This document shows, in pieces, positions 1 through 47,859 of a DNA stretch of 64,000 bases (within the stretch, counting starts at the first letter, position 1; each line of letters opens with the position of its first letter). Source of the DNA: Tetradesmus obliquus (taxonomy: Eukaryota; Chlorophyta; Chlorophyceae; Sphaeropleales; Scenedesmaceae); contig CP126192.1 of assembly GCA_030272155.1 (NCBI GenBank), positions 6,172,501-6,236,500 on the forward strand. Reading direction: 5' to 3'. The notes beneath the pieces were generated by a model. The model was not told where the DNA came from. It was given only the letters and a program-made list of their open reading frames with translations, and did not search any database. The position numbers and the translations under genes were made by a program.

Positions 1-8
1 TGCAGTGC

Positions 9-1654
9 ATGCTGTGGCAGCAGCAGCAGCAGTACGCGACGGCGAGCGCGGCGCAGCCGCCACCGGAGGCCACGCCTGCAGGGCACGCTGCTATCGGCTG
101 GCGAGTAGGCGTGTTTTGGCCAGATGTGGGAGTCTATTACTACGGCCAGCTTGTTGCTTTCAATGCAGCAGATGGCAGCCACATCATTGTGTATGATGAT
201 GGTGAGCAGGAGAGCCTGCAGCTGCAGCTGGCGAGGCTGGATTGGGTGGCTGCAGCAGGCCCCGCGCATGCGGCCAGCGCAACAGCCCGCGACGCGCACG
301 CCGTGTACATGCAGCAGCGCGAGTTTGCGCTCGCGCGTAAGCAGCAGCAGCAGCTGCGCCGGCAGCAGCGGCTGCAGCAGGGTGCTGGCGGGCCGCACCA
401 GCAGCAGGCTGCTACAGAGATGGTGCTGCAGCTGCAGCAGCAGCTGCAGCAGGTCTATGCTGAGCTGCATCAGTTAGGCTGGCAGGAGGATATGCCAGTA
501 CCTCCGCTATACCAGCAGCAGTTGCAGCAGCTGGCAGCAGCGCGGGAGCAGCTAACCGCGCAGTCAGCAGCAGCAGTGGGTCACCCTCAGGCGCCCAGCC
601 CTCACATGAAGCAGGCAATGCAGCAAGCAGCGCAGCAGCTGCAGCCGCCAGCTGGCGAGGGTTTACCTGCAGCGCCTAAACCGCCGCCCGGGCCAAAACC
701 TGACGCGCCGAAGCAGGTGGACGTCATCTGCGGGTCAAACACCGGCACGTTTGACTGCCTGCGCATGCAAGTGTTGACCAGCACGGGTGGCCAGATTAGC
801 CCAACTGAGTTTGAGCGGCTCAGTGGCAAGGGTGCCAGCAAGAAATGGAAGTGCACAATCCGTGTGCGCAAGGCAAATGGGCTGCCGGGAATCACCATGG
901 GTGACTGGCTGCTGCAGATGGGCTACGACCAGCCGAAAGAGCCCCGTGCTGGCGGCAGCAGCAGCAAAGGCAGCAGCCTGAACGATATCCGCAAGCAGCA
1001 GGCCAGCCGCAAGGCTGCTGCTGCTGCTGCCGCTGCAGGCAGGGCGGCTGCAGAGCCCCCAAGGGGCGCGGCAGCAGCAGCAGCAGCGGGAGGGCCCGGT
1101 GTGAAGCCTGGCGAGGATGGCGGGCACACCATTGTGAGCGGCAGGGGTGTGTCGATGCACCGGGAGGGCTGCATGTGTGTGATCTGCAAGCAGGCGCGCC
1201 GCAAAGCTGCGCAGGAGGCAGGCATAACCCCAGCAGCACGCGACGCATACATCCCTCGCGCCGGCGAGGCAGGCGCGAGAGGAGGGTTTGGCGGCGCAGG
1301 GGGCGCCCGGGCAGCTGGCGTGGGTGGCAAGGGCGGGCCCACGCGCAGCGGATCCCTAGGGAAGGATGGCTTTGCAGGAAAGCTGGAGGAGCGGCGTGCA
1401 AGGCTGCCTGCGCTGCTGCTGGGCAAGCGCGCGTATGTACAGGCTGTGCCACACCTGGTACGTGGTGCTGCTGTGCACCAGCTGTGGCAGCTGCCTGAGA
1501 GCCGCTGCTACTCGGCCGAAGAGTGGGAGGCGAAGCAGCAGGGCGGCAACGGCAACGGCAGCACCAGCACGGGCGCTGCTGTTGCTGCTGCTGCTGCCGG
1601 TGCTGCTGGCGGTGCGTCATCTGAATGGCAGCAGCCCGCTGTATCAGGCGGTGA

Positions 1655-1703
<49 letters not shown>

Positions 1704-2871
1704 GGTAGCCGGCCAGGCACCCCCAGCCTCAGTAGCCGCCCTGCCACCCCAGCGCCAGCAGGTGCCGAGGCGGGCGACGAGGCAACCAGCAGCAGCGCAG
1801 CCGACGCGCAGAACCAGAACCAGGGCGCGCAGGCCGGCCAGCAGCAGCAGCAGCAGCAGGGTGACAAGCCGCAGCGTGGCAGCCGCACGCAGACGTGGCG
1901 TGAGAAGCTGCGGGTGTGCCAGGCGCTTGAGCCGAAGCGCATCACGTTTGGCAAGAGCGGAATCCACGGCTGGGGCATCTTTGCGCGGCGGCCGATTGCG
2001 CAGGACAGCATGGTGACTGAGTTCAGGGGGCAGCTGGTGCGCTGCATCCTGGCTGATGTGCGGGAGGTGGCATACAGGAAGCAGGTGCGGGGCCAGGATC
2101 ATCTCAATGATTGAGAAGATAAGCACCATCATTGGTGGCTTGACATGTGTGCGTTTTTGCAGTTGAGGCAGCTGCTGTGGCGTGCGCGTCCCAGGGACGA
2201 CACGAGGTGTGCAGTGTTGTATGCTGCGCCACCTGACTTGCAGGGAGCTTCAGCCTCCTCAAGTGTATTAGCTGCCTGACCGTGCAATGCTGCTGGCATC
2301 AAGTGCTGCTGCGAGCTTTGCTGCTTGTCTGCATGTGTGAAAAAGCAGCCGCAATGTCTGCGGTTACTGCCACTCCCACCTCGTCTATAATGCTGCCTGC
2401 TTGCATGCTTGCTACGCGTCGCACCTGTGATGTGAACCTGCCTGCTGCCTGCCGCCTCTCTTACCTGCTGTCCCCGCCAGGCACGCGACTGGCCCCTTTA
2501 GCTTCTATTTTATCACCTTGCTGCAGAAATTAACACATGTTGCTCACAGTTGATCTCTGTTGAACCTGCTGCTGGCTTTGACCTGTCATTTCCAGGCGCG
2601 CGACTGCTACATGTTCCACGCCAGCGACGACACCGTCATTGACAACACCGGCCTGGGCAACTACTCCCGCTTCACCAACCACTGCTGCGCGCCCTGCCTC
2701 TACGCTAAGCCGCTGGAGCTGGGGGGCGACCTGCACCTGTGCTTCTTTGCCAAGACAGACATCAAGGCAGGGCAGGAGCTGACGTTTGACTACAGGTTCA
2801 AGGAGGAAGACAGCGACAGCAAGGTGCTGTGCCAGTGCGGCGCGCCGGCCTGCAAGGGCACACTGAACTAG
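9..2871 (+). CDS. SAND/SET-domain histone lysine methyltransferase (possibly 5' partial)
   Basis: Exons 9-2084 and 2596-2871 join in phase 0 across a 511-base intron (CAG/GTGCGG ... TTCCAG), giving 783 residues from the first ATG. The frame stays open to the window edge, so the N-terminus may lie outside. Residues about 28-75 resemble a Tudor-like fold (GWRVGVFWPD ... VYDDGEQES). Residues about 238-310 are a SAND domain, a DNA/chromatin-binding module. A small Cys-rich motif (HREGCMCVICKQARRK) starts at residue 384. The SET domain runs from about residue 643 (GIHGWGIFARRP) into exon 2 (DCYMF, NYSRFTNH, ELTFDYRF) and ends with post-SET cysteines (CQCGAPAC) before the stop. A C-terminal SET plus post-SET is typical of trithorax/Set1-class H3K4 methyltransferases, which use SAM in the nucleus; the H3K4 assignment is inference. 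The usual NHSCxPN motif reads NHCCAPC. Long Gln and Ala runs fill the linkers. Confidence 0.85.
1657..1701 (+). repeat. (CTG)15 microsatellite inside SET gene coding region
   Basis: Fifteen perfect CTG units, read in frame as GCT codons and therefore as a poly-Ala run in the linker between the Cys-rich motif and the SET domain. Length polymorphism is likely. Confidence 0.95.
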
Positions 2872-3665: not shown

Positions 3666-6600
3666 ATGGTCACAACTGCAATCATCCAGGCCACTGGGGC
3701 CTTCTTTAGACATGGTGGTGGTTCCTTTGGTGCCGCTGGGCAGCTGGGTGCTGCACTGGCTTCTGGTGGGCAGCGCTACTTCAGCTCGATCCCTGCTACG
3801 TCTGAGCTGAAAGCGGTGTTGGCACAGAAGATTCCAAAGGAGCAGGTGATCACCCAGCCCTTGCCCTGGCACGTAGCGCAACCCTCGGGCAGTGCAAGTT
3901 TGACGCAGCCACTGACGCCCGTGACGCCCGCAGGCGCGCTTGAAGACCATCAAGCAGCAGCTGGGCAGCAAAAGCTTGGGAGACGTCACTGTGGACATGT
4001 GCATTGGTGGCATGCGTGGCATCCCGGTGAGTGCCCACAACGTTGACGCGCATGACAGCGCTCACCACCCCGCTGGCATGCTTAGTACAATCGTCTTGTA
4101 AAGGCTCATATAATTGACGCTCAAACAGCGCCTCAGACAGCTCTGTGTGTTCAGCCGGGACCAGGGTTTGATCAGTGCACGTGAATTTTCTTGGAGCGGG
4201 CACTGGACGGCGTGCAGCGTATTGAAACCAATATTACCTAGGTTTTGGCTGTGCTGCAGGGCATGCTGTGGGAGACCTCACTGCTGGATGCCGAGGAGGG
4301 TATTCGGTTCAGGGGCTACAGCATCCCCGAGCTTCAGGTGAGTTACAGCTCGTGCTTGGGGTCCAACAACGTGCATTGCATAACAAACCTAGCAATGGGC
4401 CGCAGCTGTACTTCACAGCTTGCCTGAGTTCGACGAACGGCTGTGGTACTGCTGCATGCTGCTGGTTACTGCTCACACCCGCGTCTGCTGTACTGCCTGT
4501 TTTGCTGCTGCAGGCTGCGCTGCCAGCTGCTGTTGAGGGTGGCGAGCCTCTTCCCGAGGGCCTGCTGTGGCTGCTGCTGACTGGAGAGGTGCGGGAGCCC
4601 TTGCAGGACAAGCAGCAACAGCTTGCAGGAGCTGCTGCCATGCAATCAGGCTTGCGTGGCCATTGTGCAGGACAGATACAACTGGAAGATGAGCTGCAGC
4701 TGGCGTCGACATGTTGTGCGGCACCATGCAGCAGCAGCAGCATGCATTTTTAGACGTGTGCAATCCATGTGAGGTCATCTTGTCAAGCTGGCGGCTGGCA
4801 AGTGTTTGCTGAGCTTGCAGTAGCAACTCGCCAACCACCACACCGCTCTCACATACACCTTGCTGCTGCTGCTGCTGCAGGTGCCCAACAAGGCACAGGT
4901 CAAGTCTGTCACGGAGGACCTGCGCCGCCGCAGCGCGGTGCCGCCCCACATCAAGGCGCTGCTGGAGGCGCTGCCTGTTGACACACACCCCATGACGCAG
5001 CTGGTCACTCTGGTCAGCGCCATGCAGGTGCGTGCTGGCCTTAGCCATGCAGTGTGTTGTGCACATGGGTGTGTTGGTGGGTTGCATCTAGCAAGCAAAC
5101 AATAGCAGCACATCCCAGGTGTGTCAGCGCAATGGCTTGCATGCTGTAGCAAGCAGCGTTTCTGCCTGTTACAACCCACCACACGCAGCCCTGCAGCCAT
5201 CGCACCCTCCGGCGTGCCGCCCAGCAACCACCTACCCTCGCTCATGTTCCGTCTCCTCCTGCATCACACACAGCCTGCTTTCATGCCTCCAAATTGGATC
5301 CAACGCTTTAGTCAACACAGCAGCCACATTCACCCTTGCATACCCACCCTCCCTTGCCCCACCCCCACACCCCACACCCTGCAGACCGAGTCTGAGTTTG
5401 CCAAGGCCTATGCCAGCGGCATTGACAAGTACTGCATGTTTCGCGCACTCAACCCTCCCCACTCCTGTCCTGCTGCTGCACTCCCTCGCAGACCGAGTCC
5501 GAGTTTGCCAAGGCGTACGCCAGCGGCATCCACAAGTCCAAGTACTGGGAGCCCTACTACGAGGACACCATGAACCTGCTGGCGCGCCTGCCCACAGTGG
5601 CCGCCATGATCTACCGCCGCACCTACGCGGGCGGCAACTACATCGCGCCAGACCCCAAGCTGGACTGGGCGGGTAATCTGGCCCACATGATGGGCTTTGA
5701 TGACACCAGCGCGCTGGAGCTGATGCGGCTGTACCAGACCATCCACAGGTGGGCGGGTGTGGGCTGCAGTGTGTTACTTTGCTACATGCGTCGTGTTGAC
5801 CATGGTGTTGCTGTGGCTGATTCGCAGTCCCCATGAGCCTGCTCGTGCCTCAAGCAGCATTCACCAGGACTGATGCATCACCTGCTGCTACAACACCCCC
5901 TCACCTGCTGCTGCTGCTGCCGCTGCTGCTGCCGTCCATCCCCGCAGCGACCACGAGGGCGGCAACGTGTCAGCGCACACCACGCACCTGGTGGGCAGCG
6001 CGCTCACCGACCCCTACCTGTCCTTTGCCGCGGGCATGTGTGGGCTGGCTGGCCCGCTGCACGGCCTGGCCAACCAGGAGGTGCTGCGCTGGATCCTGGA
6101 CGTGAAGGCAGACGTGAGTTGGCTGCTGCAGTGCACATGCTACCAAGCTGGAAGGAGTTTGTGTGCTGTGCGTAATGAGGCTGCCTTTGTGTGTTAGGAC
6201 AACAACAGCCTGCCAAATTGAGCAACGCTTTGGCGCTCCAGCTAGCCAGCAAAGCTGTGTGCCACCGCATCCCTTCTTCAATTGAGCTGCCAGACCATCT
6301 GACGCTTTCCCCGCTGCTGCTGCTGCTGCTGCTGGTCTCCTCCTCCTCGGCCTCATTTCCTTCACCACTGCAGGTGGGCGATTCTCCCAGCAAGGAGCAG
6401 CTGACCAAGTACGTGCAGGGCACGCTCAAGAGCGGGCGCGTGGTGCCCGGCTACGGCCACGCAGTGCTGCGCAAGACAGACCCACGCTACACCTGCCAGG
6501 TGAGGGGCTGCTGCAGGGCTGCTGCTGTGCAATGGTCACTGCTGTTGCTGGTTTGCAGGCTGGCTGGCTGGTTTTGCACACTGTCTTCTATGCCTGGCTG

Positions 6601-7068: not shown

Positions 7069-10000
7069 AGCTAGGAACTGCTGCTGGCTGACTTTAGTGG
7101 GTTTTGCGGTGGCTTCTCGCCTGCCAGATAGAGCTGTTGAGTTGCTGCAAGCTAGCTGAGTCGGCAGGGTTTGCAGGTGGAGTTGGGTTGTGCCAGATGC
7201 TTGCTGCTGCTGCTTGCAGCTGTGAGGCATGAGGTGTAGCAGCAAGGAAAGTGCTGCTGCTGGCGTTGAGGTTGGCAGTCTGCACTGTCATGCAGTGTGT
7301 TGCTGCCTGAGCAGCGGCTCAGGTGACTGTACAGGTTCTTGGCACGCATCTGTTCTCAGAGCGTGTTTGACCAAGTGCAAATCGGCGGTGGCTGCTGCAG
7401 CGCTGCCATGCACGTGCATTGGTATGGTATCCATGTGGGCCTTGGAACTGCTCCCATGTGCAGGAGCAAGCAGTCCGGAAGGAAAGCATAGAATGAAGAG
7501 TGAAGGAACCGGGGGCTCTGCAGAACTCAGCAAGAGTTCTTTTGCAGGAATGGGTTGTGTGGTTTCCGCATTGAGGAGACACTTGGATATGCGAGCTTCT
7601 GATGCACCGCGTCGAGCTGCAGCTGCATGTTGCCACCAGCAGCTGAATGTTGTTGCAGTTGAAGCTGCACCTCTGCGTGGGTACATAGCATCAGCGCTTG
7701 CTTCTGTTGTTCCACTGTGCATGCTGAGCACAGAAAGGGATGAGTGTCAGGTTGGTGGTGAAGGCGGCTGTCGAATAAACAACAAACAGCCTTGTGCAGC
7801 CGCATTCTTGTACGGTGTTGTGCCACTCTTGGCTCCAGGTTTGTGTTTGCATTGTACGTACAGCCGCCACCACCACCTTCTGCTTTCAAGGCCAGGATAG
7901 ACCCCCAGAATCCTTGCAGCTAGTGCTGTGCTTGCTGGTGCAGAGGTCATGTATTGTACAGCCGCAGTTGCTGAAGTGAGAGAGGCCAGGCGCAACTCGC
8001 CTGGCACCCCTTCAGCAGCTGGTTGGAGGCTGTTCCACACCACAACTGGTGCACTGAACCATGCTGACGCATCGCGCATGTTGATTGGACTCGCTGGTTC
8101 TGTTGAGACTGTCACAGAGCAGCACAGCACCAGGGCCTCAGGGCTTCTAAACCTGCTGTCTATTTGACTGTGTTGGTAGCCTTTCTCATGCTGCAGTGCT
8201 GTGTGATTGAGACTATATGCCTCGCAAAGGAGGCTTGCATTTGCTTTGGTTGTTATGCAAGCGGCTCTCGCCCTGCACCACCAACACACAGAGCATGATG
8301 TGTGTGCAGGGCAGAGGCGGATCCGCTGAGTTGGTGGTGTGTGTCGGAGTATCGCGCATCGCACGTCGCAAAATCGACTCTTCCTAGCGTTGCTATGTGA
8401 TGTCGAGTGCAGGCAATCGCTGGGGTTTTGGCGCGAAGTCAAAAACCCTGGCCGCCAGCAGGAGCATAGCACTCCTAGCAGGCGGCCGGGGCGTCGTTCA
8501 GCAGGGAAAAAACATACATGCTTCTGTTTCGGGGCCGCAGCATGGTGTCGAGCGTTGCTGCTGGCTGGCATTTGTGTATCTTGCTCCGGCTTGGGCAGCT
8601 GGGGAGCTTCCGGGTGCACCTGCCTTGTTCACAGCAAGAAAGAAGTTGAAAGTTCACATCAGAGTTCTCGCTGTGAGCTTCGAACTTCCTGGTGTGAAAA
8701 AGCGGGGCAGCTGTGCCCCCTGGCAGCATCCACCATCACGTTTGGGAGAACTTTTCCATCATGGTTTGCAGAGGTGTGCAAAACAGGACAGCATCACAGT
8801 TTGCAGTTGTGTTGTGTGCATTCGAGATTTGCTTGTGCTTCGGCAAGCGTCGGGCATGCGGGTTATTGGGAGCTGATCGCAGTAGGACGTCACATTGCAT
8901 GGGTTGCAGGTCAAAAGGTAGGATTATGCTCGTCAATCCGGCTGATTGGCCGCTTTGGGGCTAGGCTGGGTGTAGGCTAGGCACCAAACACAGCAGTACA
9001 CGCTGATGTGAGCTGGGTGCCATACACAGCAGCACGTATCGGTGGTAGATGGCAGGTTGCAGGCAGCGGCGGTGTGGTGGTGTGTGGTGTGCGCGGTGCT
9101 GGCATGTGTGCCCGCGTGCTTGCTTTGCAGGCTGAGTGGCGTTGACAGATGCCGAATGTATAGTATACTTGATGCATGGGCTGATCTGCTGGCCTGCCAC
9201 CACGGGCACTGATATGGATGTTTGGGATCCTGGTCCACTTGGTCAGTTTCTTACAGCAGGAATCACTGCTGCGCGATTCGCAGAGGGCCATGGGCGCTTT
9301 TGCCAAGTGCCGCAGCAGGTGTTTAAATGTCGGTTTAGTCCGCCACTCGTTAGCGTGCAGTGTGTGACAGCAGGGGTTAGTGTGCGTACCACGTGTGTTT
9401 TAGCCGCTCGGAAAGCGAGCACTTGAGAGTGTAGCATCGATACAACTGGCGCAGGCTTTGCCTTGCCTGCTCAGGGCCACTCTCAGCCACTTCCCTTTGT
9501 GTGTCGACTGCAGCGTGCTTTGACCATTGTAGGTGAAATTGTAGTTGAATCAAGTACGTGATGGATGCAGCCATCACAGCCAATGCAGTTTCATTCATCA
9601 GGGCAAAGCACCGCATTCATTGCAGCCGCCGCACAGGTGGCGGTGAACAGGACTTGTTTGCATTGCAAGATGCACTAGGCACGGCATCCAACCGATTGCC
9701 GCGGGCTATGCTAGTAGCTCGTGGACAGCTGCGCGCCTTTGTTGTTTGCGCTGCAAATGACAGGGCGCCGATCCTGTTCATTTTTGTCAAGTTTCCATGA
9801 TTGCGAGCCAACCATTCAAGCTTGGTTGAATGAACATACCGTGGGTGCCGTGTTTGGGCATCAAGCAGTTGTGCTGCTGCTCAGCCGGTTGCTAAGGCTA
9901 GGCCCCTGCTGTGCGTTTGACTTCAGCCGTGTGACGGCGGCTGTGTTTGTATCATAGTGCTGCCTGTTTGCAAGGCATGCATGCCCAGCAGTTGATGTGA

Positions 10001-35605: not shown

Positions 35606-37511
35606 TTACACGCCCTCCCACCAGCGCTGGCCAGCAGCATCTGGCTGGCCCTTGGCCTTGAGCATGATGGTCTGGATGAAGCCGTTACCCTGCTGGCACT
35701 TGGCCATGTTGATGTCCCTGTCCACCAGCGCAGCCATGGCAGCAGAGAAGCCGGCGCTGTTGAGCAGGCTCACGGCGTTGGCGGGGTTGTTCATGTCGCG
35801 GTCATCGGACCATGCGTCGCTGTCATCTGGGCCGCCCACCAGGCCGCCACGCAACTGCCAGTAGTTGGGGTCTGTGGTGTAGTACGCGGACTCCCAGGTG
35901 CAGTCGGTGACGTCCACTGGCGGGCAAGAGGCGGCCTTGTGCGGCGTCTTCATGGGCTGCACGGAGCCGTAACCTGCAGGATAAATTATGCAAGCAAGGC
36001 AGTAGCAGCAGTGGTTTTTTTGTGAGTAACATGTGTTGAAAACATCGCAACTGCAAGAGTGGTTTCTGTGCCATCCTGCAAGCGTTTGCAAGTGCTGACG
36101 GCCAGCCATCAGCTGGCAAGCATCATTGCAAGCAATTACAACGGGCCTGCAGCCGCAGCAGCTGCTGCTGGCCCTAGCTTCAACTGTCACTCACCGGTCA
36201 CGTAGGAGCGGCCAGCGTCACCCAGCATGTAACCGATCTGGTTGCGCGCCCAGCACGCGTACAGCATGAACTTGTTGTCCATCACGTTCTTGGCGGCCAC
36301 CATGGTGTAGAAGGCTGCATTGGCGGTGTGCTGCAGCGTGCCGTAGGGGTAGGCCTTGGCCAGGTTCTTGTTGGTGTAGAAGATGTCGCCGGTCCTGCTC
36401 TTGGTGTTCATCCAGGTCTTCACAAAGTCCTGCACGTTCTTCTTGTAGAACTGGTCTCCGGTTGCCTTGTACAGCAGCAGGTCCAGCGCAGGCACCACGT
36501 TCTCGTAGTTGAACATGTAGGGGTTGGGGTTCACGTGGCCCTCTGCGGAGACGGTCTGGTCGTAGAACACGATCGCGTCGTTGAGGTAGTTCTCGTCGCC
36601 CGTCGCGATGTAGATCCAGATCGCCGCGTACGCCAGGTCGTCGTACATCGAGACTGACGGGTACATCTTGCCCGACTCCACGTACTTGGCGTAGTAGCCG
36701 CGCCAGCGCTGCGCCAGCTGGTACAGCACGATGGCCTTCTGCAGGTACACGTCAGCCACCTGCAGGGACTCCTCCTGGATGGCCACAGCAGCAGAGGCCA
36801 GCGCTGCACTGGACATGGCCATGGCGTCGGTGCCGGGGCGCGCTGCTGACAGGTAGGTGGCGGGGCGGGGGATGGTGCTGCGCTCGGGGGAGCCCCAGTA
36901 CAGCTTGTCCCTGGCCATGTCGCCGACCTGCAGGGTAGTAAGTGAACAACAGGCATGGCACGGCAGGGTCAGTGATTGCTTGTCGTTCGAGGGTGAAGCA
37001 GTTGACAGAGGCTGATACAGGAGCTGGGAGAAACTACATGTGTGATATCATAATAAATTATGACTCTGGCAGGGACACAGTACACAGCACGCTGCAAAGA
37101 AGATGCAGTTTTTCTGCGTGCCCACCTGTGCCACGAAGATGGGCTGCATGGAGGCGCCTGCGCTGGTGATGTTGGTCACTGACACCTTCATCAGGTAGTC
37201 AGCGCCCCAGCGGATGGTGTTGGCGCCAAAGTCCACGTTGCCGCTGCTCCTGTAGCCGCCCTTGAACTCATAGTAAGCCCAGCTCAGCATGGACACAGTG
37301 AAGGCAGTGGTGTAGCTCAGCTTGAGCATGCCTCCATCATCGTACCAACCACCCAGCAGTGAGTAGTTCTTGCCGTTGGGCAGCAGCACGCTGTCCCACA
37401 GGCCTGAGTTTCCGCGCCAGGGCGTGTTGCTGATGCGGGGCACCTTGCCGGAGCGCTGCGCCTCGAAGAACTGCAGCGACACGTTGAGCACCTGCCCGAG
37501 GTTGTAGTCAT
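35606..37511 (-). other. GH9-like domain of the fusion (predicted inactive)
   Basis: This is the domain encoded by exons 9-11, about 495 residues. GH9 hallmarks kept: RSGKVP, WRGNSGL, LLGGWYDDGG, TTAFTVSMLSWAYYEF, RWGADYLMK, QIGYMLGD, SYVTGYG, LRGGLVGGPD, SDDRD and SAGFSAAMAAL. Changes from the usual pattern: WRGDSG to WRGNSG; DAGD to DDGG, losing the catalytic base Asp; HHR to PHK; and the Glu of the xNEVAxxYNAGF block to Ala. The domain has no signal peptide, and its first in-frame Met is Met833, about 60 residues inside, so it could not be made as a normal independent cellulase from these exons. Confidence 0.8.
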
Positions 37512-40500
37512 CTGCAGTGCACAGCAGGAGTAGCAGAAGGCAGCAGTGCAGGCTGGGTGAGTTTGGATGCTTGTGTAATTCCGTATCCCATGTCAGGCAT
37601 GTATCACTGCCCTGCTCAGCATTTCTTCAGAGCTAGTAGCAGCCATACGAGCTGCTGAACCGCTTGTCCAAGCTGTCCTGCAGGGCATATGCATGCAAAA
37701 ACTGTTTCCTGCAAGCTGCGCAGCTGCCTGCCAGCAAGGCACCCGTCCACAACGGCACCCACCTGGCACCAGCCACGTGCACACGATACCGCCGATGCCG
37801 ACCATGAAGGAGAGCGTCATGCAGAAGGAGCAGAAGTCCTCGAAGAGCTGGCCCTTGTTGTAGCAGTAGAAGATGAACAGCGCGGGCGGGATCATGTTGT
37901 ACACGGACCAGAAGATGGACAGCGCCAGGAACCACCTGAAGTCTCCCTGCGCGGTGTAGGGCTTGTCAATCATCTGGAAGGCTCCCACAATGGCAGTGAT
38001 CATGGAGATGGAGAAAGAGCAAACCAGCACCCAGGCATCAAGCGTGCCCTCCATGTCTCCCACGTTCTGCGGCACTGCGCAGAACCTGCGCTTCTTCTTG
38101 CCGGTGCGGCCGTCGTCCTCTCCCTTCTTCTTTGTGGACTTGAAGACGACTGTCTTCTTGGTGATCTTCTTCCACAGCACGTTGAGCTGCGCCTTGGCGT
38201 ACGTGAACCACAGCAGGTGGCACGAGACGATGCAGAACCACAGCGGCTTCATGTGCTTGCGGTTGGTGCAGTACTGCGGGCGGGAACAGCAGCAGGGCAG
38301 CAATAAGAAGTGGCTTGGCTCTGAAGCCATAGGATAGCACGGTGCTGAACATGCAGCCTGCAACAGATGAATGGGAACTGCCAAGTAACAGACATGCAAC
38401 TGCCACGAATCCTGCAAGCACAGCATACCAGCAGCGCTGCCTGCCAGTCAAACATAATGTTACAGCTGCTCACCATGGTCACCAGCGTTGAGGAGGTGTA
38501 GTACAGCGTGGCAGCCAGCGCAAAGTCCCTGTTGAGCACCAGCGGGTACACTCCAAACACCAGCGCGATGAAGGGCACCAGCACGGAGCAGGGCACCGCC
38601 ACTGTGTTGGTCACATAACACCAGGTCACGGAGGTGTACAGCAGGCGCATGCCCAGGGTAAGGCCGGTGTCGAGCAGCGGGCAGTAGCGGGAGAACAGCA
38701 CCTGCATCTGGCCCTTGCACCAGCGCGAGCGCTGCCTGAAGATGTTGCGGATCTCTTCCGGCGCCTCGCCGATTGCCAGGTACTCATTCAGGTAGCCTGC
38801 CTTGTAGCCCTTGGCCTTCATGAGCATGCCCAGGGCGTAATCCTCAGTGATGGTGAAGGTGGGGAACCAGCCGCAGTCTGCCAGGGGGTAGCAGCGCAGG
38901 CAGAAGTTGGTGCCTGCAGGGAGCAACATCACAGCCAGCAGCAGGCAGAGGGTCAAGCGAAAGTTGAGGTTGTTGTGCTGCCAGTCTTGAAGTTCAGTTC
39001 CAAGTTGATGCAATCAAGCAGCTGCTGGGACTATGACCAGGCTGCTACCCCTGCTATGTTTCCTGCAAGCTGCTGTCCGGCAAGCTGCGTGCAGCTGCGC
39101 AGCACTGCAGGACAGACCGTCTCACAGCTGCCGCGCCGCACCTGTGCACGCGATGTAGCCGAGCGCGTCTGTTCCTGGAAGCATATACTCCCAGAAGGAT
39201 AGGTTCAGGTTGTTGAAGATGTCGCTCTGTGCGTCCACGTTGTTGAAGCCCTGGGGGGTCAGGCACAGCGCGCAGTCGTCGTCCAGCATGACCTCCAGGA
39301 TCTTGGTGAAGAAGTTGGGCTTGGCAACCATGTCGGCGTCAAACACCACCATCACCTGCGTGTGTGGAAAGCCGGAGGCGTAATTAGTGTTTAGTCAAGG
39401 TTGTGTGTGGTGAAGACACGGGTGGTTGGCAGCAAGTGTTGGTGGGGAGGCAGCTGGGCGGTCCAGGCACACTAAGCAGTGTATGGATAGAACCCTTGCA
39501 AGCTGACCTGCAACCCCAGCAAGCTGCCTACAGGCCAAGCAGTGGAGGCAGCTGCAACTGCCAGCAGAGCAGCAAGGCAACAAGACAAGCTGTGGCAAGC
39601 TTCAACACTACCGGCGCTGCAGCCAAGCAAGCTGTGCGCACCTCGCTGGTGGGGATCTTGGGTCCCTGTGCGTTCTGCGGGTAGTAGTCCTTGTAGATGA
39701 CGTTCTTCAGGCAGTGGTTGAGGTTGTTGGACTTTCCGTTGGTCTCGCCTGCACAGCAGCAAAGTAGCAGCACCATCAGGTCAGTCAGGCAGGCAGGGTT
39801 CCACTCTAGGGCACACAATAACAACCTGGCAGTAAGCAGGCAGGACCGCACCATAAATCGCAGCTGCTGCACGCACACAAATCCAGGCAATCTCAACACC
39901 CCTAGCAGCAGCAGCAGCAGCAGTGCCGCACCGTTGGGGTCGCGCTTGCGCCCGCTGACGTACTCCAGGCAGCCCCACTCCGCGTTGAGCTCGCGCACCA
40001 TCTCCTCCTTCTGAGGGTCCTTGCCGTCATCGCACAGGTACACCGTGCGCAGCGTGTCCTTGGGCAGCGGCGCCTTCAGCGCACCCAGCACCGTGAGCTT
40101 CACGAGCTCGCAGGACTCCTTGTAGCAGGGGATGAGCACGCGCACGTGGAACTTGAGGTTGTCCAGGTCCGGCTGCTGCCCCTTTTTGGGTATGGGCAGA
40201 CCCTTGGTGCGCCGCGATTTCGAGTACTTGACCAGCAGGATGGCGTAGCCGAAGGTGGCAGTGGAGGAGATGATCTCGATGAGCAGCACCAGCACACCAT
40301 AGCTGCAGGGCGAGGCAGCAGCAGCAGCAGCAGCAGCGGGATGAGGTCAGTTGATATCATGCATACCGGCAGCGACGATGCCAGCTGGTAGGGTGTGTCG
40401 TGTTGGGCATATAGCTGCAAGCAGTGCTGTTGAGGTGAAGTGAATCTGTTCCAAGTATCTCAGCTGCTGCCTATCCTGTCCTGTGCAAGCCATGTTGCTG

Positions 40501-41787
40501 CTGCTGCTGGCACTGCTGCAACAGCAAGTTTATGGCTTCACAGCCACAGCACACTCACCCCAGGTAGCCCATGTTGAGTGTGCGTGTGGAGCGGATGTAG
40601 AAGTAGTACACCGCAGCTGCGCAGTAGTACAGGAAGATGGCCAGGCCCAGCCAGTTCCAGTGCTTGGTCACTGGCCGCTTGTTCTTGGGAATGGCCTCCT
40701 TCTCGCCCGTGTCTGCATACTCCTCCTGGTCCTCCTGCAGGGGTGAATGGCAGCAGCAGCAGCAGCAGTGGGAGGACAGGTTGGCAGGTGCAGGTGCAGC
40801 AGCTGCACATCTAGTAGAGCATGAAGCTGGCTGGCAGCTTGCCATCATGCACCCAGACAGTTGACCGTGACTCTCAGTGCCTGTCAATGTAGATTCTCTA
40901 GCAAACTGCTGCAACGCAAGTCAGCGCCTGTCGCATCACCGTGCTGGCAAACTCGCAAGAGCATGCAACATGCAACAACGCAGCACATCATCCTGTTGCT
41001 GCTGAAGCACAGCAACACACCTGCAGGTCCTTGAGGCTGAGCCCCTTCTTGGTCAGCAGCTCCTCAGCCAGCGTCATCATGCCTGCCACTGCTGCAGGGT
41101 TGCCAGCAGCTGCGGGCGGGTATGCGTTGATCTGCCCGCTGCCGTAATCCTTGCTGCTGTAGTCCCTGTCCCGGTTCTTGCGCTTCACCGGCGTGCTGAC
41201 ACGGCTGCAGCAGGGCAAGCGCATCGCAGGCAACACACCACAGCAGCAGAACATGTAACCGCAAGTGCAGCGGTACGGCACTCTTGTGTGCATATATGCA
41301 AAACGGCACTCTTGTGTGTGCTGCTGCTGGCAGTGTGTACGGTTGGTTGGCGCTGCTACTGTCGCGCCGCACATGCAGCTCACAGGCGAGGCAAGCATGC
41401 AAGCTGGCTGCTGTGCAAGATTACTGCAGGCGCTCAACTAGCACCAACAAAACGCACCAGCCGCACTGAAACCCACCTGGCGCTGGCGCTGCTGCCGGCC
41501 TTGGGCGAGAAGCCCATCAGGTTGCGTGGGCTGTTGCTGAAGCTGTCCACATCGCTGGCAGGGTACCTGCTGCCGCCCCTGAAGAAGCGGCGCCAGGGGC
41601 TGCTGCTGTCACTGCCCATGGTGGGGCTCTCGCTCTGCACCTCGCCCCCCCTGCCCTTGGGGGTGATGATGCCGCTAGAGCTAGGTGGTGAGTGGCCACC
41701 TGCCTCCATGTCTGCTGCTGATGCCCCGCGGGGCCTAGTTGCTATGGGCTTGAGGTTAGGACTCATGGGAGGCTCTGAGCCAGCCAT
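35606..41787 (-). CDS. Cellulose synthase-like GT2 fused to a degenerate GH9 endoglucanase domain
   Basis: Eleven exons: 41787-41477, 41204-41021, 40734-40559, 40302-39932, 39748-39642, 39355-39142, 38913-38474, 38273-37763, 37511-37126, 36927-36195, 35973-35606; every junction keeps phase; 1266 residues. Residues 1-180 are Ser/Pro/Arg-rich and probably cytosolic. Two membrane helices (about 190-210 and 226-248) precede a processive GT2 domain with Asp315-Asp316 (CDDGKDP), Asp389-x-Asp391 (FDADMV), Thr-Glu-Asp 477-479 and QRSRW 515-519, the D,D,D,QxxRW signature of cellulose synthases; the substrate would be UDP-glucose. About six further helices follow to residue 770. From 772 a GH9 catalytic-type domain starts (DYNLGQVLNVSLQFFEAQRSG) and runs to the stop. 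Its DAGD motif reads DDGG (Gly832 at the base position), and the acid Glu position reads Ala1211, so hydrolysis is not expected. Whether the GH9 part faces the cell exterior depends on helix count. Confidence 0.85.
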
Positions 41788-45096: not shown

Positions 45097-45138
<42 letters not shown>

Positions 45139-45890
45139 GTGTTGCTTGCTCTGCAGGGATGCATCCAGGCAGCCGCACAAGCGCCATGCCTTTCTCTCAG
45201 ACGTGCTGCAGCTGAAGATGCAGCCGCTGCTGCAAGCGCAGCTGGCGCAGCTGCAGCAGCAGCTCCAGCAGCCTCGGCAGCGGCAAGCCTCTCAGCAGCA
45301 GCAGCAGCAGGATGAGGGGGGTGTGCCGCAGAGGATGTGCCTTAATGAGTTCTGCAAGAGCCCCTTTGAGTCCCCTCAGTGGCGCAGGGGCCCCCTGGGG
45401 CCGGGCACGCTGTGCAATGCATGCGGCACGCGCTACGCACGCATGGAGGCAAAGAAGAAGGGAGACAAGCGGGTAGGTTGACACTGTCACAATGCTGGGA
45501 CTGTACCAGTGCAATGAGTGCTAGCTGTGCCACCAGACACATATGTGCGTGCTGTGTTGCGCTGTCAGCAGCTGAGTATGCATGCTGTGCAGCTTCGAGT
45601 ACGCCATGCTGCGCTTATACTGGCAATCTGCCAGAGCCACACTGCTGCGCCGCAAGCTCATCAAGCAGCTGCTCAGCATTGCCCTACCCTGCCCTGCCCT
45701 GCGCTGCAATGTGTCTTGCGCCTGTGCTGTGCGCATGTCTTTTCATTTATGTCCCCAGGGTGCTAAGCTGCGGCCCCAGGACCTGGTTGAGTGGGCAGCG
45801 TTCCAGGAGCAGCTGCAGTGGCCGCTAGAGGTGCGCCAGGCCTGGGTGCTGGAAACAGTGCAAGCCAGGCTGGCTGGGTTGCCCGTGCAG

Positions 45891-45925
<35 letters not shown>

Positions 45926-47539
45926 TGAGGTGCTGACAGTGCAGCAGCAGGAAGAGCAGCAGCAGCAGCAGCAGCAGCCACAGCAGCAGGCAGGTGTGGG
46001 CGCTTTGACACAGAGCAGCACCAGCCAGCAGGGCTATGATCAGGCTGACGATGCATCAGGTGCATCAGCGGGGCCTGAAGGCCAGCTGCTGAGGCAGCAG
46101 CAGCAGCAGCAGCAGCAGGTTGGCAGCCTGGTGATGCAGCGCGCCAGTGCTGCCATGCTCTGCAGAGTACAGCAGGGCAGCGGTGCGCACAGCCAGCACC
46201 AGAAGGGCACAAAGCGGCAGCAGCCGCCGATTAGCAGCAGTGCTGGATGCCTGCCACTGCTTGAGCCTGAGCTGTATCAGGCAGAGGCAGACATCACTGC
46301 TAGGCTAGCAGGCTTGATGGCTAGGCGGCAGCAGCAGCAGCAGCAGCAGCAGCGACCTAGGCAGGCGGCAGCCACCAGCAGATGCAGCAGCAGCAGCAGC
46401 GCCCAGGCAAAGAGCAGCTGGGGCCCTGCAGCAGGCAGGGGACAGCAGCGGCTGCTTGGCTGCGAGAACAGCAGCGGGCGAGACCAGCTGCTGCAGCTGC
46501 TGGCAGTTGGTGAGGCTCTGTTTAATGCTTCAGAAGATGATGCTTCAGAAGATAAAGATGGCTACGCGCCCGACCAGGGGCCAGCCGCACAGGTGCGTTA
46601 GCAGACACAGCACGAGAACAGATAACTTCACCAGATTGTCATGAAGTCCTTGCCAGCCTGCCTTGTATTTAGTCATGTGTATGCAGCACACTATGCTGTG
46701 CCCTCTTTTGTGTTTATAGTTTGAAAGGTTTCTGGCTGTAGATTCAACACCAAGAAGGCAAGATGCCGCTGCTTTGTTGCCACTGCAGACTGAGATTCAG
46801 CAGCAGCAGCAGCAGCAGCCCAGCCAGCAACCAGACTACAAAGACAAGAGCAGATTCAAGCAGCTGCTGGCAGAGGCTGAGGAAGCAGCACGAGCACGCT
46901 CGGGCAGCCCACTGCTGCGGCCAACCACGCCACACATCGCCCAGTCGCAGCCACGAGCAGAGTCGGCAGCGGGTGCTGGCAGCAACGCCCAGGACCCTGC
47001 TGCTACAGCCGCCGCCGCTGCAGCTGCTGCTGGCGGTGCTGTTGATGCGGATGCGCAACTGCAGCTTGATCCAGATTATCCTTGCAAGCCTCAGCAGCCG
47101 CAGCAGCCCCAGCAGCTGCGGCCAGCATCTGCAGCTACAGGTGACAAACCAGCTGCTGCAGAGCTGGGATCAGGTGCCTGTAATAAGGCTCCTGGGCCAG
47201 CAGCAGACACAGCACCCGCAGCAGATGATGGGCGCAACAATGCACAGCCACAGCGGCAGCAGCAGGCAGCACAGAAGCAGCAGCAGAAGCAGTCCCTGCT
47301 GCTGCACATGCTCAGCGGCCTGCTGACTGCAGCACTGGGTCTGCCAGCAGCACCAGGCAGCAGCCAGCCAGATGGCGAGCTGCAGCAGCAGCTGCAGCAG
47401 GTGCTTGCTGACCCAGCAACACAGCAGCTGCTGGATGCCTGCCTGGCAGACAAGGCAGGCACTGCATGGCTGGGTGAGTTCCTGAGCAAGCTAGGGTTTG
47501 AGCAGGGGCTGCTGCAGCAGCGGCTGCAGAGCCGGATGT

Positions 47540-47597
<58 letters not shown>

Positions 47598-47807
47598 AGC
47601 AGCAGCACCTCCTGCAGCTCCTGTGGGTAGCGGCGATGCCGTGGCACAGCAGGGGCAGCTGGCAAGGCAGGACCTGGGGAAGCAACTAGAGCACCTAGGG
47701 CAGCGTGCGGAAGCAGCACAGCAGGCATGTGGCAGCAGCAGCACAGCAGACTCTGCAGCTGCGCAGGCAGGGGATATGCAGGTCAGCAAACAGCACCTGA
47801 CCGCAAG

Positions 47808-47859
<52 letters not shown>
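44741..47859 (+). CDS. GATA-type zinc-finger protein with Q- and A-rich tail
   Basis: Four exons: 44741-44832, 45157-45472, 45759-46592, 46720-47859, phases agree, 793 residues. Exon 2 carries a GATA finger: CLNEFC (Cys92, Cys97), then [24 protein letters not shown] (Cys117, Cys120). [16 protein letters not shown] is the diagnostic core. The first Cys pair is spaced by four residues and the loop is 19 long, instead of the usual CX2CX17-18CX2C, so the metal site may be slightly altered. Exon 3 begins with a helical segment ([31 protein letters not shown]), followed by long Gln and Ser/Ala-rich regions typical of activation domains. Exon 4 has an Ala run and ends in 16 Gln directly before the stop. 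The likely role is a nuclear DNA-binding regulator of unknown targets. The exon 1 ATG is supported by an in-phase donor (GGGTGAGT) and acceptor (CTGCAG). Confidence 0.85.
45099..45137 (+). repeat. (CTG)13 microsatellite at intron 1 end of the GATA gene
   Basis: Thirteen perfect CTG units about 20 bases before the CTCTGCAG acceptor, taking the place of a pyrimidine tract. Confidence 0.95.
47545..47597 (+). repeat. CTG repeat coding poly-Ala in the GATA gene
   Basis: Read as GCT codons, this gives roughly 17 consecutive Ala, followed by a CAG-repeat stretch that reads GCA and extends the Ala run. Confidence 0.95.
47809..47856 (+). repeat. (CAG)16 coding C-terminal poly-Gln of the GATA gene
   Basis: Sixteen perfect CAG codons lie immediately before the TAA stop. 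Length variation would change only the last residues of the protein. Confidence 0.95.

Follow-up and report, generated by a model that had tools for sequence, protein, structure and literature searches.

A conserved green-algal gene family joining a cellulose-synthase-like GT2 in frame to a GH9 domain with replaced catalytic residues

The 64,000-nucleotide stretch of Tetradesmus obliquus DNA analysed here (the window; contig CP126192.1, positions 6,172,501 to 6,236,500) contains a gene that encodes, in a single frame, a glycosyltransferase of family GT2 of the CesA/BcsA type (exons 1–8), membrane helices and a glycoside hydrolase domain of family GH9 (exons 9–11), in that order. The in-frame fusion is real. 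Its GH9 domain looks like a pseudo-cellulase and, on the evidence of its catalytic sites, is predicted not to hydrolyse. Homology searches indicate that the fusion is no isolated case: it belongs to a family of green algae that has several loci in the T. obliquus genome, and the GT2 plus pseudo-GH9 architecture is conserved and, as far as the open-access literature searched shows, undescribed.

The fusion and its relatives

The window gene lies on the minus strand (41787-35606) in 11 exons, with GT..AG borders at 10/10 introns and an uninterrupted frame of 1266 codons, giving a protein of 1266 residues. An earlier reading of this DNA, made from the sequence only, described an exon 8 ending one base into a codon that is completed by exon 9 beyond an intron of 251 bases, and the gene model bears this out: exon 8 ends at 37763, reading ...TGG CTG GTG CCA G followed by GTGGGT, and exon 9 starts at 37511, reading AT GAC TAC AAC, with ...WLVP-D-DYNLG as the joined peptide. 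The same reading held that a separate GH9 gene would be hard to support, and this too stands, since intron 8 contains two stops and no Met in the exon-9 frame and the first in-frame Met of the GH9 part lies 60 codons inside it. Transcripts with a poly(A) tail inside intron 8 had been named as one sign against the fusion; the poly(A) signal TGTAA does not occur there, yet none occurs within 1 kb past the stop codon of the gene either, and the test therefore carries little weight. A Pfam scan of the window protein gave eight matches at E 0.1, including PF13641 at 277–521 and PF13632 at 386–572 (both GT2) and the GH9 family PF00759 at 778–1222 (292 bits), with no zinc-finger, PilZ or GH6 family among the eight.

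Relatives were sought in three protein searches, using the whole window protein, its GH9 domain and a GT2 alignment, after which domains were rescanned; all three drew on a limited set of candidates, the matches listed are the best 120 of 230 and the best 120 of 130 in two of the searches, and absence from them is uninformative. This search for proteins with both domains, which the sequence-only reading had proposed, found at least 46 in the database, some partial (at least 47 including the window protein), and GT2 precedes GH9 in all 47 fused proteins among the matches listed. The nearest match listed, P0001, shows 92% identity across 100% of the window protein and is labelled a complete open reading frame (ORF) by its source (record GHUV01000347.1), as is P0003 (GHRR01010433.1); from their accession style we take both records to be transcript assemblies. 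Evidence from RNA across the junction, suggested earlier as a check, is thus at hand in relatives and not in the T. obliquus strain itself. The WLVPDDYN junction is identical in P0001, P0003, P0004, P0005, P0006, P0007 and others, and the switch from last membrane helix to GH9 falls at one shared position, distant members included.

All hosts named among the fused matches listed are green algae; they include Raphidocelis, Monoraphidium, Tetradesmus, Haematococcus and Chlamydomonas, together with Trebouxia, Symbiochloris, Coccomyxa, Myrmecia and Apatococcus. A class look-up places T. obliquus in the Chlorophyceae (Sphaeropleales) and Myrmecia bisecta in the Trebouxiophyceae, and the remaining named hosts presumably belong to one or other of these classes. 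A single-species oddity is ruled out by these homologs. Several family members bear the database names 'cellulase' or 'six-hairpin glycosidase', which are probably misleading.

Searching the T. obliquus genome (104.7 Mb, 17 contigs) revealed six loci at which synthase-type exons lie ahead of GH9 exons in the same orientation, on contigs C2 (the window gene), C3, C6, C12, C8 (at 1.58 Mb) and C14, the last with only the last-membrane-helix exon of the synthase seen in the piece examined. The exons of the T. obliquus protein P0005 match the C6 locus mostly at 93–100% identity, with lower matches in two gapped segments (84%, 76%) and in extra, partly duplicated pieces (51–85%), while P0023, also from T. 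obliquus, matches the C12 locus in four pieces at 89–100% and in others at 55–93%. P0023 is annotated as GT2-only, yet GH9 exons lie downstream in the same orientation at C12:3454001-3464000 (L031). At the C6 paralog (L021, C6:4654001-4664000, ~5482-6476) the QRSRW-region exon occurs about five times in tandem, complete or in part, an exon duplication. At the C8 fused paralog (L035, C8:1584001-1594000, 8900-10000), which may be decaying, the last GH9 exon (AGALVAGP..DDxYVDD) stands in tandem with stops between the copies.

Catalytic residues of the GH9 domain

Canonical GH9 catalysis uses the Asp pair of the DAGD motif and a Glu as acid, both of which are conserved in 1KS8 and in the active-type aligned rows. 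The window GH9 reads DDGG for DAGD, PHKA for PHHR and NAV for NEV, keeping the first DAGD Asp; Gly replaces the second, Pro the first His of PHHR, and Tyr stands at two positions where active GH9s conserve Trp. It is because the acid Glu, the second Asp, the first PHHR His and these two Trp are replaced that the domain is predicted to be non-hydrolysing. The sequence-only reading had implied here the same coupling of synthase to cellulase that is known elsewhere; the in-frame GT2–GH9 fusion in a green alga stands, but a working cellulase is not supported.

The acid Glu is kept in only one of the 39 fused proteins that cover the site (8/47 do not), compared with 102 of the 111 unfused sequences that cover it (9/120 do not). 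Among the nine unfused exceptions, synthase-type membrane helices lie ahead of the GH9 in P0049 and P0080, which are therefore read as truncated fusions. Six others (P0051, P0052, P0053, P0057, P0058 and P0059) are without the DAGD region, share 57–89% identity with the window GH9 and are probably fragments of fused genes. The ninth, P0149, in which no upstream membrane helix was seen, nests among fused rows in the GH9 tree and is probably another such fragment, if less clearly so. Within the T. obliquus genome the acid is Glu at 9/9 readable standalone loci, defined as those with no GT2 match in the flanks examined, and at 0/5 fused loci; the acid position lay outside the data read for the fused C8 locus and for a locus at C2:6.85 Mb, and the DAGD site of the standalone loci is clear in L022, L023, L024, L026 and L029 and not in L027, L032 and L034. 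Two adjacent standalone GH9 genes at C8:806059-812370, with DAGD, PHHR and NEV all readable, are good active controls.

A group of 15 aligned rows, several without a host name, was treated as Sphaeropleales-type, with numbering by the 1KS8 fragment. Changes in this group affect H122, W251, W299 and H357 (Lys, Tyr, Tyr and Pro respectively in the window), positions that we take to line the GH9 cleft. The first DAGD Asp is kept in 13/15 rows and the first PHHR His is lost in 15/15, and W30, R31, D38, W72, Y204, D211, W219, Q332, Y335, D401 and R403 are kept in most of the 15.

Gene layout and the synthase half

The features of the gene, with its predicted transmembrane helices (TM1–TM7), are as follows.

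41787-41477 and 41204-41021, minus strand: exons 1-2, start codon and N-terminus, residues 1-165 (gene model)
40734-40559 and 40302-39932, minus strand: exons 3-4, TM1, TM2 and start of the GT2 domain (gene model, hydropathy, Pfam)
39748-39642 and 39355-39142, minus strand: exons 5-6, GT2 core with FDADM (DxD) (gene model, Pfam, motif scan)
38474..38913, minus strand: exon 7, TED and QRSRW motifs, interface helix, TM3 and TM4 (gene model, motif scan, hydropathy, P0005 model)
37763..38273, minus strand: exon 8, interface helices, gating loop, TM5-TM7, end ...WLVP + G (gene model, P0005 model, hydropathy)
38127..38144, minus strand: gating-loop motif FKSTKK (FKxTxK) (pattern in 41/41 fused proteins whose GT2 match exceeds 450 residues)
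37512..37762, minus strand: intron 8, 251 bp, between synthase and GH9 (gene model)
37126..37511, minus strand: exon 9, GH9 start (DDYNLGQVL...), sequons N781, N820 and N885 (gene model, Pfam, residue reading)
37330..37341, minus strand: DDGG where DAGD is expected, second Asp to Gly (alignment of catalytic sites)
36195..36927, minus strand: exon 10, middle of the GH9 domain (gene model, Pfam)
35606..35973, minus strand: exon 11, GH9 end, C-terminal tail and stop codon (gene model, Pfam)
35933..35944, minus strand: PHKA where PHHR is expected, first His gone (alignment of catalytic sites)
35771..35779, minus strand: NAV where NEV is expected, catalytic acid Glu to Ala (alignment of catalytic sites)

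Residues 1–165 contain no Pfam domain and are presumably cytosolic; this N-terminus is 92% identical to that of P0001 and 25–38% identical, in the aligned parts, to those of P0003, P0005, P0006, P0008 and P0013. Hydropathy peaks at residues 194–212 and 227–245 mark TM1 and TM2, PF13641 begins at 277, and TM3 is also supported by hydropathy. The window GT2 has DxD, TED and QxxRW between its membrane helices. Among the 41 fused proteins whose GT2 match exceeds 450 residues, QxxRW and FKxTxK are always present, DxD was found in 38, TED in 34 and DDG in 35, although the last two patterns, which missed 7 and 6 of the GT2s, may be too narrow. Judged by its motifs, the synthase half looks functional. 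Its best sequence match in the PDB is the bacterial cellulose synthase BcsA (84.8 bits, compared to 21.6–27.6 bits for plant CesA), and GT2 profile matches outside green algae include a Gracilaria CesA and entries named cellulose synthase (UDP-forming). A structure model of P0005 predicts a GH9 fold, in keeping with membership of the window GH9 in that fold family.

Elsewhere in the window, a 703-aa open frame at its edge (3-2111, plus strand) has a weak SAND domain match (E 6.2e-5), and several GCA/CTG trinucleotide arrays lie at 45099-47856.

Proposed role, alternatives and origin

We consider it likely that the protein is a CesA/BcsA-type synthase that sits in the membrane and makes a beta-glycan processively, most probably a core-chlorophyte cellulose synthase, with a non-hydrolytic GH9 outside; its product, the exoplasmic side, the order of events and the role of the pseudo-GH9 are all points that we infer. 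The last membrane helix would continue directly into the GH9, placing it on the outer face, where the GH9 fold would be retained as a non-hydrolytic domain; at the channel exit it may steer the nascent chain, or may keep synthases packed laterally in linear terminal complexes.

Several points weigh against this proposal. No biochemistry was found for any member of the fused family. The window gating loop, FKSTKK, keeps the F, T and K of FxVTxK and has S in place of V (FKVTAK is found in P0016, P0021, P0022 and P0027). The structure model, made with a 21-sequence alignment, is that of P0005 and not of the window protein, and TM4 is seen solely as a helix of this model, being under the hydropathy threshold in the window protein. 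The second DAGD Asp is still Asp in 12/45 covered fused proteins, and the loss of the acid (38/39) is therefore general while that of the base is patchy; P0014, which is fused, retains every catalytic residue tested. In the Sphaeropleales-type rows W299 is variable and W251 mostly Tyr, and binding in the old cleft is therefore uncertain either way. In the literature, the available text of PMC3091534 reports that six green algae (Micromonas, Ostreococcus, Chlamydomonas, Volvox) have a single CslA/C-like gene apiece and speculates that such a gene makes mannan, and that of PMC13181414 maintains that endoglucanase hydrolytic activity matters for cellulose synthesis, Ciona included.

The best-surviving alternative, which we nevertheless regard as unlikely, is that the synthase makes some other beta-glycan (mannan, mixed-linkage or other glucan) and that the dead GH9 serves that polymer. 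The change of the two Trp would fit, and structural alignment to solved cellulose synthases gives 17–23% identity, with the (1,3;1,4)-beta-glucan synthase CslF6 also in the fold list; on the other side are the BcsA match in the PDB and the cellulose synthases among the profile matches beyond green algae. It is quite improbable that the GH9 still hydrolyses via substitute residues (DDGG, DDRD), trimming or releasing nascent glucan as proposed for KORRIGAN: the widespread first Asp, the intact P0014 and the need of other synthases for active endoglucanases, stated in the part of PMC13181414 available, could be cited in its favour, but the acid Glu is lost in nearly all fused proteins that cover it and the first PHHR His in every Sphaeropleales-type row, Glu is kept at the standalone loci of the same genome, and an active hydrolase was judged unlikely given the replaced residues.

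We give even less credence to the GH9 being a decaying passenger without function, as the missing catalytic residues and the tandemly repeated last exon of the C8 paralog might suggest, because the pseudo-GH9 is under purifying selection. The ratio of nonsynonymous to synonymous substitution rates (dN/dS) between the window gene and its C3 paralog is 0.26 for the GH9 (448 codons, dS 0.90) and 0.17 for the GT2 and membrane part (579 codons, dS 0.92), figures which include noise at the edges of high-scoring segment pairs. Identity to P0001 is as high in the GH9 (92.7%) as in the GT2 and membrane part (93.3%), the GH9 fold is predicted for P0005, and many of the residues that active GH9s conserve are retained. 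Two neighbouring genes wrongly joined, an idea left open by a window of genomic DNA only and by relatives annotated as GT2-only such as P0023, are scarcely credible and were rejected on the gene model, the full-length ORFs on transcript-style records (P0001, P0003, P0019), the junction position shared with distant relatives and the lack of a start codon in intron 8.

A GT2 tree of 76 rows (37 of the 47 fused, 38 unfused and P0023), built by a quick method with Shimodaira–Hasegawa-like approximate likelihood ratio (SH-aLRT) support only, unites the fused rows and the nearest unfused rows in one group (SH-aLRT 99), whose named members are green algae and which is separate from Gracilaria P0041 and the bacterial-type rows. 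Fused and unfused rows are intermixed within it and several long branches are flagged; the fused/unfused label needs eight changes, among which loss, re-fusion and truncated gene models are indistinguishable. A first GH9 tree, with 22 fused rows, grouped both P0014 and five standalones (a Chlorella and an Auxenochlorella sequence included) with the fused rows (99). A careful tree of 59 rows (36/47 fused, leaving out P0002, P0024, P0050 and the 8 that do not cover the acid position) sets the acid-less fused rows, including P0080 and P0149, apart from the standalones, and groups P0014 with the latter (99/94). Since the placement of P0014 differs between the two GH9 trees, the order of fusion and losses is one that we infer: a single early fusion of an active GH9 to a synthase would have been followed, early in the family, by loss of the proton-donor Glu, and later by patchy losses of the second DAGD Asp, of other cleft residues or of the fusion itself.

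As the sequence-only reading had maintained, the fusion differs from the GT2–GH6 of tunicates, and from KORRIGAN and BcsZ, which are separate enzymes, in that its domain is a GH9 in one frame with the synthase. BcsA is the same kind of GT2 as the algal synthase, but the window protein has no PilZ match, and the cellulase of the BcsA system, BcsZ, is a separate, active GH8. Plant rosette CesA, whose C-terminus is outside the cell, shares the GT2 core and a similar fold; it differs in its weak sequence match, and the window protein has no zinc-finger match and carries the C-terminal GH9. KORRIGAN likewise ties a GH9 to cellulose synthesis, but as a separate enzyme with its own N-terminal anchor, whereas the algal GH9 is joined behind the final membrane helix of its synthase and is without catalytic residues; the need for catalysis by KORRIGAN is disputed in the available text of PMC11062476. 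A parallel in design is the tunicate (Ciona) CesA, in which, according to the part of PMC7464555 available, a GT2 synthase is joined in one protein to a GH6 without the catalytic Asp that most separate GH6-1 proteins keep. The hydrolase family and the lineage both differ, and the algal fusion would therefore be independent.

No mention of a GT2–GH9 or CesA–GH9 fusion was found in the open-access literature searched, and the text available of a review of the green-algal matrix (PMC10762512) contains no GH9. The CesAs of the linear complexes of Chlorophyceae, known by ultrastructure, were not found in the genomes then analysed, according to the available text of PMC3797821; the GT2–GH9 family is a concrete candidate, present in an alga used in the laboratory, for this chlorophyte linear-complex cellulose synthase. 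We suggest, tentatively and with rather less confidence than in the nature of the protein itself, that core chlorophytes could make cellulose with synthases each bearing an extracellular pseudo-cellulase, chain guidance or lateral packing having replaced hydrolysis. If this is true, loss of cutting would be a recurrent result when a cellulase becomes joined to a cellulose synthase, having occurred independently in tunicates, and the role of GH9 in cellulose synthesis would extend beyond catalysis. The family is also relevant to the question why cellulose synthases have cellulases as partners: here the GH9 fold has been kept and its chemistry apparently dropped, a pattern shared with tunicate CesA–GH6.
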